Positions 1,040 to 19,322 of a stretch of 36,023 bases of DNA are shown here, piece after piece; the stretch's first letter is position 1; every line of letters starts with the position of its first letter. The position numbers and the translations under genes are program-made. The notes beneath the pieces are model-generated. The model made no database searches, was not told the DNA's origin, and saw only the letters and a program-made list of their open reading frames with translations. Origin of the DNA: Candidatus Moraniibacteriota bacterium. Lineage in GTDB: Bacteria; Patescibacteriota; Minisyncoccia; JAHIHE01; DAOVOJ01. The stretch covers positions 1 through 36,023 of the forward strand of contig DAOVOJ010000003.1 in NCBI GenBank assembly GCA_030629775.1. The letters run 5' to 3'.

Positions 1040-3394
1040 ATGAATAAAAAAAACAATCTCAAAAAAAACAATAAAACCAATCTTGTCAAAACAAAAATAG
1101 TACCGCTTATTCCGTTGAAGGAAACGGTTATTTTTCCGTATGAAGTCGTTTCGCTTTCTATTGCCCGGCGGGAATCGGTGCAGATCATGGATAATGTTCC
1201 TTCACGGCCTCGGATAGCTTTTGTTTGTCAAAAAAATCCCACTAACAGTTTAGTTTCCAATAATTTATATAAAATTGGAACGATTTGCGATGTTAAGCAA
1301 ATGATGAAAATGCCGGACGGCACGGTTAAGGCGATCGTGGAAGGAGTTGAAAGAGTGGAAGTCATTAGATTTGTCCAAAAAAAACCTTTTTATTTGGCAA
1401 ATGTCAAAAAAATTATTCCTGTTGACGGAGATCCGTTGAGAGTGGAAGCAATGAGAAGAGTAATTTTGGAACATCTTAAAAAAGGAATTTCTTTGGGAAA
1501 GCCGATCTCTTTTGAGGTGATCATTCAAATGCTGGGCAAAGATGTCGGTCACAATAAATTCATTGACATTATTACCGCCGGCTTGGATTTCAAAATCAAG
1601 GATAAGCAGGAACTTCTGGAAATTAGCGACACTGAAAAAAGATTGGCAAAACTGGACAGCTTATTGGTGGAGGAAATGAAAATCTGGGAGATGGAAAAAA
1701 AGCTGATGGACAAAACTCAGGAATCGCTGGGCAAAATGCAGAGAGAAGTTATTTTAAGAGAACAGTTGAAGACCATTGAAAAGGAGCTGGGAATGGACAA
1801 AGAGGGGGGAGAAATAGGGGAGCTGAACAAGAAAATCGTCCAGGCAAAAATGCCTCCGGAAGCGAATAAACAAGCGCTCAAGGAATTGGAGAGATTAAGA
1901 AAAATGTCCGAATACGCCCCGGAATCTTCTTATATCAGAACTTATCTGGAGTGGCTGTCAGAAATGCCATGGAGCAAGAAATCAAAAAGCCGAATTAACA
2001 TCAAGAAAGCGAAAGAAATTTTAGACAGGGACCATTACGGGCTTGATAAGGTAAAAGAGAGAGTTTCAGAGTTTTTGGCGGTCCAAAAACTGGCGGGCAA
2101 AATCAAGGGACCGATCTTGTGTTTTATCGGTCCGCCGGGAGTGGGCAAGACCTCTATCGGGAAGTCGATCGCCGAGGCGCTCAACAGAAAATTTATCAGA
2201 GCCTCTCTCGGCGGCATCAGAGACGAGGCGGAGATCAGAGGGCATCGCCGAACTTATGTCGGCGCCTTGCCCGGAAGAATTATTCAGGGAATTAAAAAAA
2301 CTGAAACCAGAAATCCGGTTTTTATGCTTGACGAGATCGATAAGATCGGCGCTGATTACCGAGGCGATCCTTCGGCGGCTTTGCTGGAAGCGCTTGATCC
2401 CGAGCAAAATAATTCTTTCGTTGACCATTATCTGGAACTTCCTTTTGATCTTTCCGATGTAATGTTCATTACCACCGCCAATGTTTTAGACACTATCCCT
2501 TCCGCTTTGCGTGATCGGCTGGAGATCATTGAATTTGTCAGTTATACCGAAGAAGAAAAGTTTAATATCGCTCGCCGGTTTTTAATCCCTAAAGTTTTAA
2601 AGGAACACGGCATAAAGATCAGCCAGTTTGCTATTTCGGACGAGGCTTTGAAAATTATCATCAGCAAATATACATTGGAAGCGGGAGTGAGGGGACTGGA
2701 GCGGCAGATAGCGAAAATTGCCCGCAAGGAAGCTAAGCGAATAGTTGAAAAAGCCCGCCTCAAAAAGATAAAAAAAATTAAAATAGATAAAAATAATTTA
2801 TCGGATTATCTCGGTCCGGAAAAGTTTCTGCGGACAATGAGAGAAACAAAAGATGTTGCCGGAGTGGCAACCGGTTTGGCGTGGACCTCGGTGGGCGGGG
2901 AGATCCTTTCTATTGAAGCTTCCTGTTTTCCGGGAAAAGGCAGTTTGAATCTCACCGGCCAGCTGGGAGATGTGATGAAAGAATCAGCCCAAGCGGCCTT
3001 TTCGTATGTCCGTTCAAGATCGTCAAAACTGAAGATCAAAAGAAATTTTTACAAGGAGTGCGATGTTCATCTTCATGTTCCTTCGGGTGCAATTCCAAAA
3101 GACGGACCATCGGCGGGCGTGGCGATGGCGGTAGCGTTAGCTTCCGCTTTAACAAAAAGGAAAATAAGGCAGGAAATTGCCATGACGGGAGAGATCACTT
3201 TGCGGGGAAAAATTCTTGAGATCGGCGGAGTAAAAGAGAAAGTCATTGCCGCTCGTAAAGGAGGTGTGAAGACAGTTCTTTTGCCGAAGGACAATGAAAA
3301 AGATTTGGAAGAAGTTCCCGCGGAAGTAAAAAAGGCGTTGAAGTTTAAGTTTGTGGAGAATGTGGATGAAGTGTTGGATTTGGTTTTGATTTGA
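1040..3394 (+). CDS. lon: ATP-dependent protease Lon
   Basis: 784 aa; GPPGVGKTSIGKSIAEAL Walker A, DPEQNNSFVDHYLELPFDLS, catalytic motif KDGPSAGVAMA. Confidence 0.97.
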   Translation: MNKKNNLKKNNKTNLVKTKIVPLIPLKETVIFPYEVVSLSIARRESVQIMDNVPSRPRIAFVCQKNPTNSLVSNNLYKIGTICDVKQMMKMPDGTVKAIVEGVERVEVIRFVQKKPFYLANVKKIIPVDGDPLRVEAMRRVILEHLKKGISLGKPISFEVIIQMLGKDVGHNKFIDIITAGLDFKIKDKQELLEISDTEKRLAKLDSLLVEEMKIWEMEKKLMDKTQESLGKMQREVILREQLKTIEKELGMDKEGGEIGELNKKIVQAKMPPEANKQALKELERLRKMSEYAPESSYIRTYLEWLSEMPWSKKSKSRINIKKAKEILDRDHYGLDKVKERVSEFLAVQKLAGKIKGPILCFIGPPGVGKTSIGKSIAEALNRKFIRASLGGIRDEAEIRGHRRTYVGALPGRIIQGIKKTETRNPVFMLDEIDKIGADYRGDPSAALLEALDPEQNNSFVDHYLELPFDLSDVMFITTANVLDTIPSALRDRLEIIEFVSYTEEEKFNIARRFLIPKVLKEHGIKISQFAISDEALKIIISKYTLEAGVRGLERQIAKIARKEAKRIVEKARLKKIKKIKIDKNNLSDYLGPEKFLRTMRETKDVAGVATGLAWTSVGGEILSIEASCFPGKGSLNLTGQLGDVMKESAQAAFSYVRSRSSKLKIKRNFYKECDVHLHVPSGAIPKDGPSAGVAMAVALASALTKRKIRQEIAMTGEITLRGKILEIGGVKEKVIAARKGGVKTVLLPKDNEKDLEEVPAEVKKALKFKFVENVDEVLDLVLI

Positions 3395-3440
3395 ATTAAT
3401 GGATTAACGGATTGATGAAATGGTGAATTATGTGTTTGCT

Positions 3441-3599
3441 GTCATTCCGACCGAAGTGACCCTAAGGCGATAGCCGAAGAGGGAGCGAAGTGGAGGAATC
3501 TGTAAAACATGAAATACTTGTTTCTAATAAAGACATTATAAAACACGCACTTTATCCACTAACAGATCCCTCGACTCCTATCGTCGCTCGGGATGACAG
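3441..3599. repeat. Palindromic repeat family A, copy 1 (intergenic)
   Basis: gtcattccgaccgaagtgaccctaaggcgatagccgaa...acagatccctcg...gtcgctcgggatgacag; also at 4883-5038 and 16492-16672. Confidence 0.9.
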
Positions 3600-3608
3600 T
3601 AATATTGA

Positions 3609-3995
3609 ATGGAATATTCTACCCACGAACAAAACTGTGAATATATCTTTAAAGAGGCCTGTCGGGTTTTAAAACTCAAGGGGTTTTCTTTTAAGCCGAA
3701 AATAATCAGGGCGGGCGACGGGTATGTGAAAAATTACAAACTGGGATACACTAATTTAAAGTCAAAGTTGGTGGTAGTTGATATTTATACACAGAAATTA
3801 AAAAAGCCGAAAAAGTATTCCAGCATTCTCGCCGTCATCGCGCATGAACTTGCCCATCATCAAAAAAAGCCTTATCGGCAGTTTTATAAATTCCGCTGGA
3901 TAAACCGGATTCACTATCCGAAGTTTTATAAGCAGGTCGTGAAGAATGTTGGGAAGTTTAAGAAGGATGGGGTGTTGGGGAGGTTTTATGAATAA
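3609..3995 (+). CDS. SprT/WLM-like zinc metallopeptidase
   Basis: HELAHHQKKPYRQFYKFRWI motif; starts 10 bp after repeat A copy 1. Confidence 0.6.
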   Translation: MEYSTHEQNCEYIFKEACRVLKLKGFSFKPKIIRAGDGYVKNYKLGYTNLKSKLVVVDIYTQKLKKPKKYSSILAVIAHELAHHQKKPYRQFYKFRWINRIHYPKFYKQVVKNVGKFKKDGVLGRFYE

Positions 3996-3997
3996 AT

Positions 3998-4036
3998 AAA
4001 AAAAGAGGAGAGTCGCGCGATGAGCAACTCCCACTG
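3998..4036 (-). terminator. Probable intrinsic terminator of the 4053-4415 gene
   Basis: Minus strand GGGAGTtgctcatcgcgcgACTCTCC followed by a T-rich run. Confidence 0.45.
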
Positions 4037-4052
4037 TTCTATTTGAATACCG

Positions 4053-4415
4053 CTAGTATTCTGTGTCCATACTCTCTTTTATTCCCAGGGAGTATTTTTC
4101 ATCAATTTTCTCGGCCAATTTAGGCCGAAGACTCCAGAGAGAGATAACGCGCCGTGCCATTTCCTTATCATCTTTCTCTTGAGCAAACAGATCAAAAGCT
4201 TCTTCCAATTGCTCATTTGAAGTGCGACAAAGCGTTTCTTTGGCGATTTTTCCGCCTAGTTCTGGACGATGCTCCTTAAGAAGTTCAAGGGCAACGCTAA
4301 CTATTCCTGGGTTGTTGTTTATCGCTTCTACAATAAGTAGATTAAAAGCGATCTCTACTTGCTCGTCTGGAATGTCCTGATTTAGGACTATTTTCTCAAA
4401 TGTTCCTATGCCCAT
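4053..4415 (-). CDS. Hypothetical soluble helical protein
   Basis: ORF starts 4454, but ATG at 4415 (MGIGTFEKIVLNQ...) has an SD (ggagacaattacaATG), so it is preferred. Confidence 0.6.
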   Translation of the reverse strand: MGIGTFEKIVLNQDIPDEQVEIAFNLLIVEAINNNPGIVSVALELLKEHRPELGGKIAKETLCRTSNEQLEEAFDLFAQEKDDKEMARRVISLWSLRPKLAEKIDEKYSLGIKESMDTEY

Positions 4416-4491
4416 TGTAATTGTCTCCTGCGACTCAAGCGAGAAAAATCTCACTTGAAGTCAACAATTTATCATATCACATCTAAAAAAT

Positions 4492-5700
4492 ATGTCAACT
4501 CCTAAAAACAAAAAAGCAATAATTGCGATGTCGGGCGGAGTTGATTCATCTGTGGCGGCGGTTTTATTAAAAGAACAGGGTTATCAGGTGGGAGGGGTTT
4601 TTATGAGATTGGGGATTGAGGGGGATGAGGAATCTGAGAAGAGCGCGCGGGCGGTGGCGGATAAGTTGAAAATAAAGTTTTATGTTTTGGATTTAAGTAA
4701 AGAATTTAAGAAAAAAATAATTAACTATTTTATTTCCGAATATAAAAACGGACGGACGCCGAATCCGTGCGTGATGTGTAATAAAGAAATTAAATTTGGG
4801 GTTTTATTGGATAAGGTTTTGGAAATGGGAGCTGATTTTGTGGCGACAGGACATTACGCCCGCTTACAGTGTTTACAACACTGTCATTCCGACCGGAGTG
4901 ACCATGAGGCGATAGCCGAAGGGGAACGGAGTGGAGGAATCTGTAAAGGCGATATGCTTGTGCCTCATAAAGATATTTTGAAAAACACATCTCATTTTCC
5001 TACAGATCCCTCGGCTCCTACCGTCGCTCGGGATGACAAGTTTAAACTACTTAAAGCAAAAGACAAAAATAAAGATCAGTCGTATTTTCTTTATAATTTG
5101 ACTCAGGAAAAGCTGAACTATTGCTTATTTCCGCTAGGGGAGTATAATAAAAGAGAAGTGAGGGAGTTGGCGAGAGGGTATAAATTGCCGGTTTTGGAGA
5201 GGGACGAGAGTCAGGAAGTCTGTTTTATTAAAAGCAAAAGATACGGGGATTTTTTAAAAAAGCATCTCAAGTTAATCTCGGGCGACATCGTTAATCTTGC
5301 CGGTGATAAAATAGGCCGCCACCAAGGACTGCCGCTTTACACTATCGGCCAGCGGCGGGAAATTGGCATTGGCGGAACCGGTCCTTATTACGTGGTCGGA
5401 ACGGATTTTGAAAATAATAAATTAATAGTCAGCAATGATGCCGATGATCCGGCTTTATACTCTAAAGAATTAATGGCGGAAAAAGTAAATTGGATTGCCG
5501 GAGAAATTCCTAAACCGCCACTCAAAATAAAAGCCAAGATTCGCTATCGGAGTAAAGAAGTTTCGGCGACAGTGAATCAGGAAAATAAAGACAAATATAA
5601 GGTCATTTTCAAAACTTCCCAACGAGCGATCACTCCGGGTCAGTCGGTGGTTTTTTATTTAAAGGACGAGGTTTTGGGAGGAGGGATAATAAGCTTATAA
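4492..5700 (+). CDS. mnmA: tRNA-specific 2-thiouridylase MnmA with in-frame repeat insertion
   Basis: AMSGGVDSSVAAVLL, NPCVMCNKEIKFG, ATGHYARL, KNKDQSYFLYNL, ITPGQSVVFYLKDEVLGGGII; residues encoded by 4883-5038 come from repeat family A. Confidence 0.96.
   Translation: MSTPKNKKAIIAMSGGVDSSVAAVLLKEQGYQVGGVFMRLGIEGDEESEKSARAVADKLKIKFYVLDLSKEFKKKIINYFISEYKNGRTPNPCVMCNKEIKFGVLLDKVLEMGADFVATGHYARLQCLQHCHSDRSDHEAIAEGERSGGICKGDMLVPHKDILKNTSHFPTDPSAPTVARDDKFKLLKAKDKNKDQSYFLYNLTQEKLNYCLFPLGEYNKREVRELARGYKLPVLERDESQEVCFIKSKRYGDFLKKHLKLISGDIVNLAGDKIGRHQGLPLYTIGQRREIGIGGTGPYYVVGTDFENNKLIVSNDADDPALYSKELMAEKVNWIAGEIPKPPLKIKAKIRYRSKEVSATVNQENKDKYKVIFKTSQRAITPGQSVVFYLKDEVLGGGIISL
4883..5038. repeat. Palindromic repeat family A, copy 2, inside mnmA
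   Basis: gtcattccgaccggagtgaccatgaggcgatagccgaaggggaacggagtggaggaatctgt...acagatccctcggctcctaccgtcgctcgggatgaca; 156 bp, frame preserved. Confidence 0.92.
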
Positions 5701-5767
5701 AGTCAAAAGTCGAAAACTTATTTACTACTGAGAAATCTAAAAATATAATTTTTTATTAAAATATTTT

Positions 5768-6205
5768 ATGTCAAAAAATCAATTATCAATCATAATTTCA
5801 AAACTAATCTTAATCGTTAGTGTTGTTGGTATTGGAACAGTATTTGAAATATCAGAACATACTTTAATAAAATCAAAAATGCTGGCTCCGTCAGTTATGG
5901 CACAGGAGAAAGTGTTAAATGAAATTAGTATATCAAAATGGAGTTATCTGGAATCATCTGAAAATATCCCAATTAGTTTTCAGGAGGCAAAAATAAATAT
6001 TACAAATTGGATTCTTGGTATGGGTGCGAATGTAGCTGTCTTAATAATTGTTTATGGAATGATGAAATTTATTTTAGCCACGACAAAAAAAGACAAAGAA
6101 AAGAAACATAAGGCTCAAAAAATAATTGTTTATGGTTTTATTATTTTTGTTCTTTGTGCTTTAATTTATGCTATTCTGTTGCCAGGAAGTGTTGTTTTGC
6201 AATAA
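5768..6205 (+). CDS. Small membrane protein, VirB2/TrbC pilin-like topology
   Basis: N-terminal hydrophobic segment plus two TM helices separated by a basic KKDKEKKHKAQK loop. Confidence 0.45.
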   Translation: MSKNQLSIIISKLILIVSVVGIGTVFEISEHTLIKSKMLAPSVMAQEKVLNEISISKWSYLESSENIPISFQEAKINITNWILGMGANVAVLIIVYGMMKFILATTKKDKEKKHKAQKIIVYGFIIFVLCALIYAILLPGSVVLQ

Positions 6206-6219
6206 TAGTATTCAATTAA

Positions 6220-8220
<2,001 letters not shown>

Positions 8221-8370: not shown

Positions 8371-8460
8371 TTTCTTACCTCCCTTTTCATTTTGTATTTC
8401 TATAATACTTCATTAGAAATTTTTGTCAAATTCTTAACAATTTAGTGATATATCAAGTTT

Positions 8461-8569
8461 GTCATCCTGAATTTATTTCAGGATCTGTCATGTGTTATAT
8501 AATGCTTTTATATTTATCTTGAAGCTAAATGTAACAGACGACAGATCCTGAAACAAGTTCAGGATGACA
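8461..8569. repeat. Palindromic repeat family B, copy 1
   Basis: gtcatcctgaatttatttcaggatctgtcatg...acagacgacagatcctgaaacaagttcaggatgac; near-identical inverted copy at 12968-13075. Confidence 0.92.
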
Positions 8570-8590
8570 GTTCTGACATATTTCGTAATT

Positions 8591-8885
8591 TTAAAGTAAT
8601 AAATTTTTTATTCTCTTCGCTTCTTCCTCAACAACTTTCCCGTCGTATTCTCCTGAATGGGCTGTTTGGTTTCCGTAAGATGGCTTTTTTTGGTCAAGAT
8701 GAAGATTTAAAATATAATTTTTCTCATCCTCGCTGATGTACAAATGAAAGCGGGGATAAAAATTTGTTCCCAACCTTCGGACATAAGAATTTTCCAAAGG
8801 AAAATACCCGCACTTTCTTTTTAAAAAAGTGGCGATGTTTTGTTTGAGATTTTTTTTGGGAAGATAGATTTTTATAAAAACTTGT
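8591..8885 (-). CDS. Hypothetical protein, N-terminus apparently abutting a repeat
   Basis: Tracked ORF 8591-8797 extends upstream in frame (IKIYLPKKNLKQNIATFLKRKCGYFPLENSYVRRLGTNFYPRFHLYISEDEKNYI...) with no ATG; exact 5' end uncertain. Confidence 0.5.
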
Positions 8886-12860: not shown

Positions 12861-12967
12861 AGAAAATTTTTATTTTTTATTTTTTATTTTTTATTTTTTA
12901 TTGAATTTCTAATGAATCAATTTTCAATGATTATTTTTTTTCTGAATTACGAAATGTGTTAGAATTT

Positions 12968-13075
12968 GTCATCCTGAACTTGTTTCAGGATCTGTCGTCT
13001 GTTACTGTAAGTTTTAAGATAAATATAAAAGCATAATGTAGCACATGACAGATCCTGAAACAAGTTCAGGATGAC
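12968..13075. repeat. Palindromic repeat family B, copy 2 (opposite orientation to copy 1)
   Basis: Reverse complement matches 8461-8569 over its length, including the non-palindromic centre (atgcttttatatttatctt). Confidence 0.92.
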
Positions 13076-13182
13076 AAGTTCAATTCAGGATGACAATTAA
13101 AGTTTTATATTTTATTTCTATCTTCTAGTTTTATTAAAACTTTATAAACTTTTAACTTTACAAACTTTATAAGCTTTATTTC

Positions 13183-16472: not shown

Positions 16473-16491
16473 GGTTAAAACTTGAACGCTT

Positions 16492-16672
16492 GTCATTCCG
16501 ACCGAAGTGACCCTAAGGCGATAGCCGAAGGGGGAACGGAGTGGAGGAATCTGTAAGAGCGATATACTTGTGTTTCGTAAAGATATTTTGAAACACACAC
16601 TCTACTCTTTTACAGATCCCTCGGCTCCTAAAGCCTGCCCCGTACTTTGATACGGGGTCGCTCGGGATGACA
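16492..16672. repeat. Palindromic repeat family A, copy 3 (intergenic)
   Basis: gtcattccgaccgaagtgaccctaaggcgatagccgaaggggg... ctcgggatgac with an extra internal gccccgtactttgatacgggg hairpin. Confidence 0.9.
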
Positions 16673-17660: not shown

Positions 17661-17732
17661 GCCGCCTTCGTCTAGCGGTTAGGACGCTAGGTTCTCATCC
17701 TAGTAACAGGGGTTCGACTCCCCTAGGCGGTA
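17661..17732 (+). tRNA. tRNA-Glu (anticodon CTC)
   Basis: GCCGCCT acceptor / AGGCGGT; CTAGG TTCTCAT CCTAG anticodon arm; GGGG TTCGACT CCCC T-arm; no encoded CCA. Confidence 0.93.
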
Positions 17733-19231
17733 CTATCGGGGAATTGGGGTCATAGGACTCCTTTTTTATTGCTAAAACTGGCGAAATTTCAGGGGTTTGA
17801 AATCTCTCATAGCCATAAATTGGCTTTTCAGGAAAAATCAAACCCTGTATTTTTATTTTCTGATCGTAACTGGCTTTGCTCCAGTATTCGGGAATAGTAG
17901 CAATAAAATCAAAGACATAAGTCACGGCTTTATCTATATTAAATTCTTTAATTTCATTTTCATCTAAAATAATTTGCTTATCTAATATTTCTTGTTTTAA
18001 TTTATCAAAAGCTTCTTTAAAATCTTCATCAGAAAAAAGCTCTTTCCTTCTCATTTCTATTAGTTTTACTTTTTCTTCTTTCAAGTTTTCCAATACTTTG
18101 AGAGTATCTTTCCTGTGTTTATTTAATTCTTTGTATCTTTTCTTCCAGACATCGGTAACTATGGCCTTAAAGGGGTCCAGAAAAGTTTTCTTGGGGGTTA
18201 TTTCTTCCAAGTAACGCAAAAAATCTTTTTCTAATTTTTTCTTAGCGATTGATTTTCTTGAATCACAATTTTTGTTATAACATCTGTAGTAAGGGTATTT
18301 TCCTCCCCATCTCCCAGTAGCAAAATAAGCTGTTAGGGGTCTGCCACAATAAGCGCATATTACAAAATGTCTCAAAGGAAAATTTTCGTTAGCTTGATTT
18401 CTGGAAATATTTTCGGCTCTATTTTCTCCAGTTAGAATATTCTGGCACTTGTAAAAAACTTGATCGCTAATGATGTGCTCATAATTACCTTCATACTCTT
18501 CACCTTTCACAGTCATTATTCCTATATAAAATTTTCTTTTGATAAATTTGCTCATAAGTTGAGCTGAAATTTCTTTTTCATTCCAACTTCTTAATCCTTT
18601 TTTGTTGGCCATAATTCTTAATTCTTCTAAGGTATAAATTCCAGTTGAAAATCTTTCAAAGATCCATTTAATCAGTGGAGCTCTTTTTTTATCTACTGCG
18701 ATAACCTTTTTTCCAAGTCTATTCGTTGTATTTAGGTAACCAACAGGGGCTTTGCCACACCAATATCCTTGTTCTCTTTTTTCCCTTAAGCAGTCAGTAA
18801 TTCTTTGACTCTTTGTGTCGTTGTCGAATTGAGCACTCGCGGCCATAATATTGCCAATAAACTTTCCCGTTGGAGTATTATCAATTGCTTCTGTTGTGGA
18901 AATAAGCTTTATATTTAGTTTATTTAAGAGAATGGTAATATTACTATAGTCATTAACATTTCTTGACAGTCTGTCTATTTTGTAAACAATGACGCAATCC
19001 ATTCCCTTGTTTCTCTTATTGCAGAATTTAAGCATCTCTTGCAAACTTGGTCTGTCGGTAGTTTTGGCTGAAACGCCGTCATCATGGAACATTTTGATTA
19101 TTTCTATATTATTGCTCTCGGCATAGTTTAAACAATTCTTTTTTTGCTGATCTAAGCTAACGCCAAATTGAGCTTGGTCTTCTGTTGAAACACGATAATA
19201 TATTATTCCTCTTATTTTATTTGGTGCCATG
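17695..19231 (-). CDS. Large serine recombinase/integrase
   Basis: Resolvase domain RGIIYYRVSTEDQAQFGVSLDQQKKNC...VYKIDRLSRN; Cys zinc-ribbon (CAYCGRPL...CYNKNCDS) and coiled coil; likely start MAPNKIRG; ORF stops inside tRNA-Glu. Confidence 0.95.
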
Positions 19232-19247
19232 TGTTTATTGTTAATTA

Positions 19248-19322
19248 TAAAAAGGGAGCAATAAATCTGCTTTGAACTCAACTAACTAAAAAGCAGTTGA
19301 AGCAGAAAATGCTCCCTTTTTA
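19248..19322 (-). terminator. Strong terminator-like hairpin in the recombinase 5' leader
   Basis: AAAAAGGGAGCA...TGCTCCCTTTTT with nested CTGCTT/AAGCAG, ~20 nt upstream of the recombinase ATG. Confidence 0.75.

Follow-up and report, generated by a model that had tools for sequence, protein, structure and literature searches.

How does a dispersed palindromic repeat come to lie inside the open reading frame of a conserved, single-copy tRNA-modifying enzyme, and what becomes of it there? The window, i.e., the whole stretch of 36,023 nucleotides analysed here, is contig C40 of a draft assembly (G000; 829 kb in 73 contigs, completeness ~94%), and it includes an mnmA gene that bears such a repeat. 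The gene product scores 417.6 bits against the cut-off of 284 for the NCBIfam NF001138 equivalog, and a single full-length match to mnmA is present in the genome. The P-loop SGGVDSS and both conserved Cys residues (C96 and C244) are preserved, as is every column that is invariant among 25 MnmA sequences of the class and among 41 mixed sequences. The equivalog score, the HUP P-loop, the catalytic Cys pair and the fold all place the protein in the MnmA family.

The repeat within mnmA and its family

The preliminary description of this locus reported a dispersed palindrome in frame inside mnmA, and this is borne out by ~45 matches in the assembly and by an ORF that is open throughout its length (Table 1). 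The location given for the insert (4883–5038, 156 nt) was right, while its limits are corrected to a core of 157 nt that begins one position earlier. Likewise, the two intergenic copies described at 3441–3599 and 16492–16672 do exist, with coordinates that now start at 3440 and 16491. The core repeat in mnmA runs TGTCATTCC...GGGATGACA and is flanked in the protein by TGHYARLQCLQH and KFKLLKAKDKNKDQSY. We refer to its family as family A, in which the copy nearest to the mnmA insert has an E value of 5e-56.

Table 1. Positions of mnmA, its insert and the intergenic family A copies in the window
Feature	Position	Strand	Basis
mnmA, tRNA 2-thiouridine(34) synthase, 402 aa, bears the in-frame insert	4492..5700	+	NCBIfam NF001138, Pfam PF03054/PF20259/PF20258
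Family A core palindromic repeat, 157 nt, encodes CHSDRSDHEAIAEGERSGGICKGDMLVPHKDILKNTSHFPTDPSAPTVARDD	4882..5038	+	~45 genome matches, hairpin z -3.9, AlphaFold pLDDT
Putative outer left arm (..ACAGTGTTTACAACAC), limits uncertain; other copies have similar outer arms (ATTACGCGTTTAC)	4868..4881	+	flank comparison, inference
AAGTTTAAAC-like stretch, outer right arm or host codons (K)FKL, inseparable	5039..5047	+	flank comparison
One-base-shorter purine run (GAAGGGGAACGG), takes the frame beyond the family CTG TAA stop	4918..4933	+	copy alignment
Intergenic family A copy, 159 nt, all six frames closed	3440..3598	+	
Intergenic family A copy, variant right arm (extra hairpin), arm common to the C50, C58, C63 and C6 copies	16491..16672	+	

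Alignment of the copies resolves family A into a left module of 65 nt, a right module and, between them, a spacer of ~57 nt that comes in two or more sequence types, the terminal pairing of the core being TGTCATTCCGA/TCGGGATGACA. Folded as RNA, the mnmA copy forms a hairpin with a z of -3.9, and none of 200 shuffled sequences was as strong. Two subfamilies were recognised, one with a longer right end (the copy at 16491, whose right arm diverges after ~16630, and those on C50, C58, C63 and C6) and one with an extra spacer segment of 65 nt (C68 and C2). The left outer arm and the possible right one suggest that the inserted stretch somewhat exceeds the core, the AAGTTTAAAC-like stretch matching both the right flank of the copy at C62:17193 and the conserved FKLLKA of relatives. 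A different family of dispersed palindromes (TTGTCATCCTGAACTTGTTTCAGGATCTG...) occurs in the window at 8433–8596 and 12962–13081, in opposite orientations, and likewise ends in a TGTCAT/ATGACA-like sequence.

Among 48 family A places examined in the assembly, the mnmA copy is the only one within a conserved gene. An ORF of 1015 aa on contig C37 was considered as a second coding copy, a candidacy weakened by the finding that only the 34-nt right end matches (88%); judging by its sequence, the palindrome there is a related or composite one. This ORF (L083:1682–4729, minus strand) encodes an O-antigen-ligase-like/TPR membrane protein with two to three palindromic pieces in frame, namely ARHSEAIAEES...AQDD, CHSERSGAEPKNP...LAQDD and CVKPTPSPSQEGN.

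Few frames of family A could be read through. Across 31 near-full copies, only 16 of the 186 copy-frames are free of stop codons, and the +1 frame, in which mnmA is read, is open in just two of them: the mnmA copy itself and that of C36, which has a different spacer type. It is closed in the remaining 29 copies, in agreement with the earlier remark that intergenic copies hit a stop in this frame. The usual form, GCCGAAGAGGGAACGG, meets CTG TAA, while the mnmA copy, GCCGAAGGGGAACGG, reads past it. In the mnmA frame the common form is ...GAA GAG GGA ACG GAG TGG AGG AAT CTG TAA; in the mnmA copy the purine run is shorter by one base and the sequence becomes ...GAA GGG GAA CGG AGT GGA GGA ATC TGT AAA..., which stays open to the end. 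The proposal that one base fewer avoids the TAA is thus correct as to mechanism. The shorter run is not unique to mnmA: the same one-base-shorter form is found in two intergenic copies (C15:16299 and C18:9812), so that it may predate the insertion instead of having repaired the frame afterwards, and we reject a change made or selected within mnmA as unproven. Insertion of a pre-existing short variant would explain the frame equally well.

An AlphaFold model, computed with an alignment of 41 sequences, has a mean pLDDT of 86 with a core above 90, and superimposes on solved MnmA structures (PDB: 2hma, 2deu, 2det and 2der) with Z values of 42–46 (45 for 2hma and 2deu) over 329–349 residues. The model contains one low-confidence segment, residues 131–178 (pLDDT <50). 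Because this segment falls between the strands 123–128 and 183–188, the insert is predicted to form a disordered loop at the turn, or tip, of a beta-hairpin, the MnmA fold being otherwise intact. Both the loop comparison below and this model agree with the view put forward previously that the insert occupies a variable MnmA loop, the enzyme being conserved and the genome CPR-like.

Palindromes in the same loop and in other genes

In a control set of 71 loops from a contig scan, mostly of non-CPR MnmA and with near relatives of the window left out, 69 measure 15–25 aa (mode 19). The two outliers both belong to CPR bacteria: a loop of 32 aa in Howlettbacteria and a palindromic one of 52 aa in Ca. 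Staskawiczbacteria (L124). Within the order, 18 genomes were searched and 14, including the window, had a complete mnmA loop; ten of these loops have no hairpin and measure 21–32 aa, among them the short loops of the sisters G014, G005, G007, G009 and G012, and four contain a palindrome (71 aa in the window, 66 in G015, 61 in G010 and 58 in G008). The alignment with sister genomes that had been suggested as a check therefore finds the insert missing in most of them, and no MnmA was found to have the same insert conserved without the DNA repeat.

The palindromes in the loops of G010, G015 and G008 differ from that of the window and correspond to repeats found in those genomes themselves or in relatives. 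Those of G010 and G015 belong to a second family, B (TGTCATTGCGAGG...CTCGCAATGACA), with 79 and 77 matches in the respective genomes, counts that take in both orientations because the element is palindromic. The insert of G008 is of this kind too, though diverged. Further families of the class place loop hairpins of very different sequence in L242, L246, L233, L067, L241, L238 and L248, with perfect stems of 26 bp in L242, 21 bp in L246 and 12 bp in L233. The mnmA event is accordingly no isolated case, a point that the preliminary description missed. In L242 and L246 (the mnmA genes of G189 and G149), second perfect inverted repeats of 28 and 24 bp are present in another loop (GARHLSALRCLAPKS and HLGAGHPSALGCPAPK). 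The MnmA loops of L237, L240, L226, L231, L249, L251 and L128, also of the class, have at the same site low-complexity, A/T-rich sequence (REFPISNFQFPIKSQIQNS-like, from CAATTTCCAATTTCC repeats), which often adjoins a short GC hairpin.

Loop hairpins with a fold z of -3 to -10 were found in 13 of 54 MnmA rows, and on a tree of these rows, made without the loop, the hairpin-insert state requires at least 11 changes by parsimony; since 20 of the rows had been picked for a long mnmA match, this number is evidence of recurrence and not an estimate of frequency. The MnmA loop is repeatedly invaded by unrelated palindromic families. G010 and G015, which are genera-mates, are set apart on the tree by the insert-free G014, and L045 and L046 are not sisters. 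Between G010 and G015 the dS of mnmA is 0.62 (Nei-Gojobori), and shared descent with neutrality would lead one to expect a difference of ~40% between their inserts, which differ at 15 of 123 aligned positions and by 17 nt in length. From these comparisons, the best fit would be that the two inserts arrived separately from source copies of similar sequence, or that other copies have converted them; the low divergence could also reflect constraint on the insert.

Nor is mnmA the lone host gene. Of the 47 family B copies examined in G010, three sit within recognisable genes and keep their frame, namely those in mnmA, priA (L277) and uppP (L291). Two relatives add further in-frame family B copies, G007 in recO (L334) and G014 in a Mur ligase gene (L335). 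With one of 48 family A places and three of 47 family B copies in genes, and all of these in frame, coding copies appear strongly depleted and the survivors open, in a survey that favours the detection of open ORFs. The loop of UppP bounded by SYL and LKSDLLF serves several unrelated palindromes as a second shared landing site (L291 and L323–L333). It holds family B in G010, an in-frame palindrome resembling those cognate to RAYTs (REP-associated tyrosine transposases; GGTTCCATAGTCC..GGGCTGTGGAACC) in G006, G017 and G012, and other palindromic pieces in G007, G009 and G000, while no such insert was found in the UppP loop of G013, G016 and G002. In G008 the family B copy in this loop has eroded while the ORF has stayed intact, as would be expected of tolerated, decaying inserts.

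Explanations for the insert

It is highly probable, in our judgement, that a mobile-type palindrome is tolerated in mnmA as a translated, disordered loop which leaves the enzyme core intact, and that the same loops have been re-invaded as permissive surface turns. A non-autonomous, dispersed palindromic repeat of the MITE/REP-like kind would have entered mnmA where the gene encodes a beta-hairpin turn, and would have been retained since this particular copy and its insertion phase leave the ORF open. The ~52 residues would then be translated as a disordered extension that does no harm to the core and, because the core is left intact, the insert is presumably tolerated rather than functional. 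Both the MnmA and UppP loops would have been re-invaded by unrelated palindromic families in the lineage because surface turns accept almost any in-frame sequence, and selection against gene loss would leave the rare genic copies in frame and open. We thus infer translation and neutrality of the insert, and targeting of the loops, or a benefit from recurrent insertion, may contribute. A wider proposition, that palindromes of the class are a standing source of protein sequence, that the MnmA and UppP loops are repeatedly, perhaps preferentially, targeted or retained, and that lineage-specific insertions come largely from mobile hairpins, is offered tentatively and seems to us somewhat doubtful.

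That the insert is not translated at all, the hairpin being skipped by translational bypassing or removed from the RNA, would suit the strong hairpins, which lie within conserved genes and recur at the same sites, and bypassing has a precedent in the byp elements of Magnusiomyces mitochondria, as mentioned in PMC6649704. This reading is nevertheless very improbable because the frame has been kept open: the +1 frame is open in mnmA although closed in nearly all other copies, and several families are free of stops in MnmA, UppP, PriA, RecO and the Mur ligase, which bypassing would not require. Furthermore, no Rfam intron or other RNA family was matched in 3300–6300. Equally hard to credit is that mnmA is a decaying pseudogene, or that its frame stems from an error of assembly or base-calling. 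The key difference is indeed one base in a purine run, in a draft genome of many contigs, but the invariant residues of MnmA are all preserved across 402 codons, the one-base-shorter form recurs in two other copies, and independent assemblies show an open insert of the same kind in the same loop. Selection for the inserts, with the loop extension serving MnmA or the mRNA hairpin tuning folding or expression, is improbable, though less so. It could draw on the repeated use of one loop on the tree, on the similar length of inserts of unrelated sequence, and on the inserts of G010 and G015 having diverged less than synonymous sites; yet the unrelated sequences, the predicted disorder, the missing inserts of close sisters and the erosion of the G008 copy in UppP speak against it, and variable surface turns that accept anything account for the pattern.

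Family A has terminal inverted repeats and a high copy number and is without coding capacity of its own, as is characteristic of MITEs, and its copy number and empty sites point to mobility. Direct duplications of 2–9 nt were no commoner beside 29 copies, the boundaries of which are uncertain, than in shuffled flank pairs. Direct mobilisation of family A by the RAYTs of the lineage is unlikely, yet better placed than the three readings weighed above. RAYT-type Y1_Tnp genes gave four hits in G000 and were present in all eight relatives searched, many being flanked by palindromes of their own, and the palindrome in UppP of G006, G017 and G012 resembles such cognates. In these nine genomes, however, neither family A nor family B lies beside any RAYT gene, and mobilisation by adjacency is accordingly rejected for family A; a cognate transposase gene may be missing because the assembly is only ~94% complete. 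Elsewhere in the window, a serine recombinase gene (17695–19281, minus strand) overlaps a tRNA-Glu gene (17661–17733), with a Toprim protein, a UvrD-like helicase and uncharacterised genes downstream, and the 17661–19281 region looks like part of a mobile element that has the tRNA gene as its integration site.

Comparison with known systems

Protein-coding palindromes have so far been described mainly in Rickettsia and Wolbachia. If the preferred reading, a tolerated and translated insert, is true, then a broad and reduced bacterial lineage gains new enzyme loops from landing mobile hairpins, and its filled and empty sites, with their different families, would amount to repeated natural experiments on the acceptance of foreign sequence by proteins. 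It would also caution against reading function into those insertions of CPR proteins that are specific to a lineage, as they may stem from repeats instead. Literature searches turned up nothing relevant on palindromes or MITEs inserted into genes of CPR/Patescibacteria, though such silence proves no novelty.

Several known systems share some of these features. The GTAG/CGTC-tagged palindromes of REP/RAYT systems (PMC3733652) are dispersed as well, and RAYT genes with flanking palindromes occur in the same genomes as family A, but family A is far longer than the 20–40 bp REPs and stands beside no RAYT gene. The mitochondria of Nematomorpha (PMC6649704) have long inverted repeats that are translated within protein-coding genes; those, however, are perfect and maintained, do not form dispersed mobile families, and belong to an animal organelle. 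The Wolbachia palindromic elements (Ogata et al. 2005, as cited in PMC2229807) are likewise protein-coding repeats outside Rickettsia, in another lineage, and are likened to family A by their description.

The closest likeness, already drawn in the preliminary description and upheld here as an analogy, is to the Rickettsia palindromic elements (RPE; Ogata et al. 2000, 2002). As summarised in PMC2229807 and PMC10969869, RPEs are dispersed elements of ~105–146 bp with a terminal inverted repeat of ~12 bp, nearly half of those in R. conorii lie in genes, and for gmk the insert was shown to be translated and the enzyme active. Family A is also palindromic and dispersed, with terminal pairing and a core slightly longer than an RPE. 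In both systems there are many intergenic as well as in-frame genic copies (here mnmA of the window, and mnmA, priA, uppP, recO and the Mur ligase gene for family B in relatives), several families within one genome, enzymes that tolerate the inserts, and hosts of the small-genome, host-dependent type. The lineage is another one, and the elements are filed as RPE-like by organisation. Genic copies are also much rarer, ~1/45 for family A and 3/47 for family B against nearly half in R. conorii. Finally, one protein loop is re-invaded here by unrelated families across genera, of which we found no report; on the sequences compared, the lineage and this repeated invasion of a single loop appear to be the new aspects of the system.
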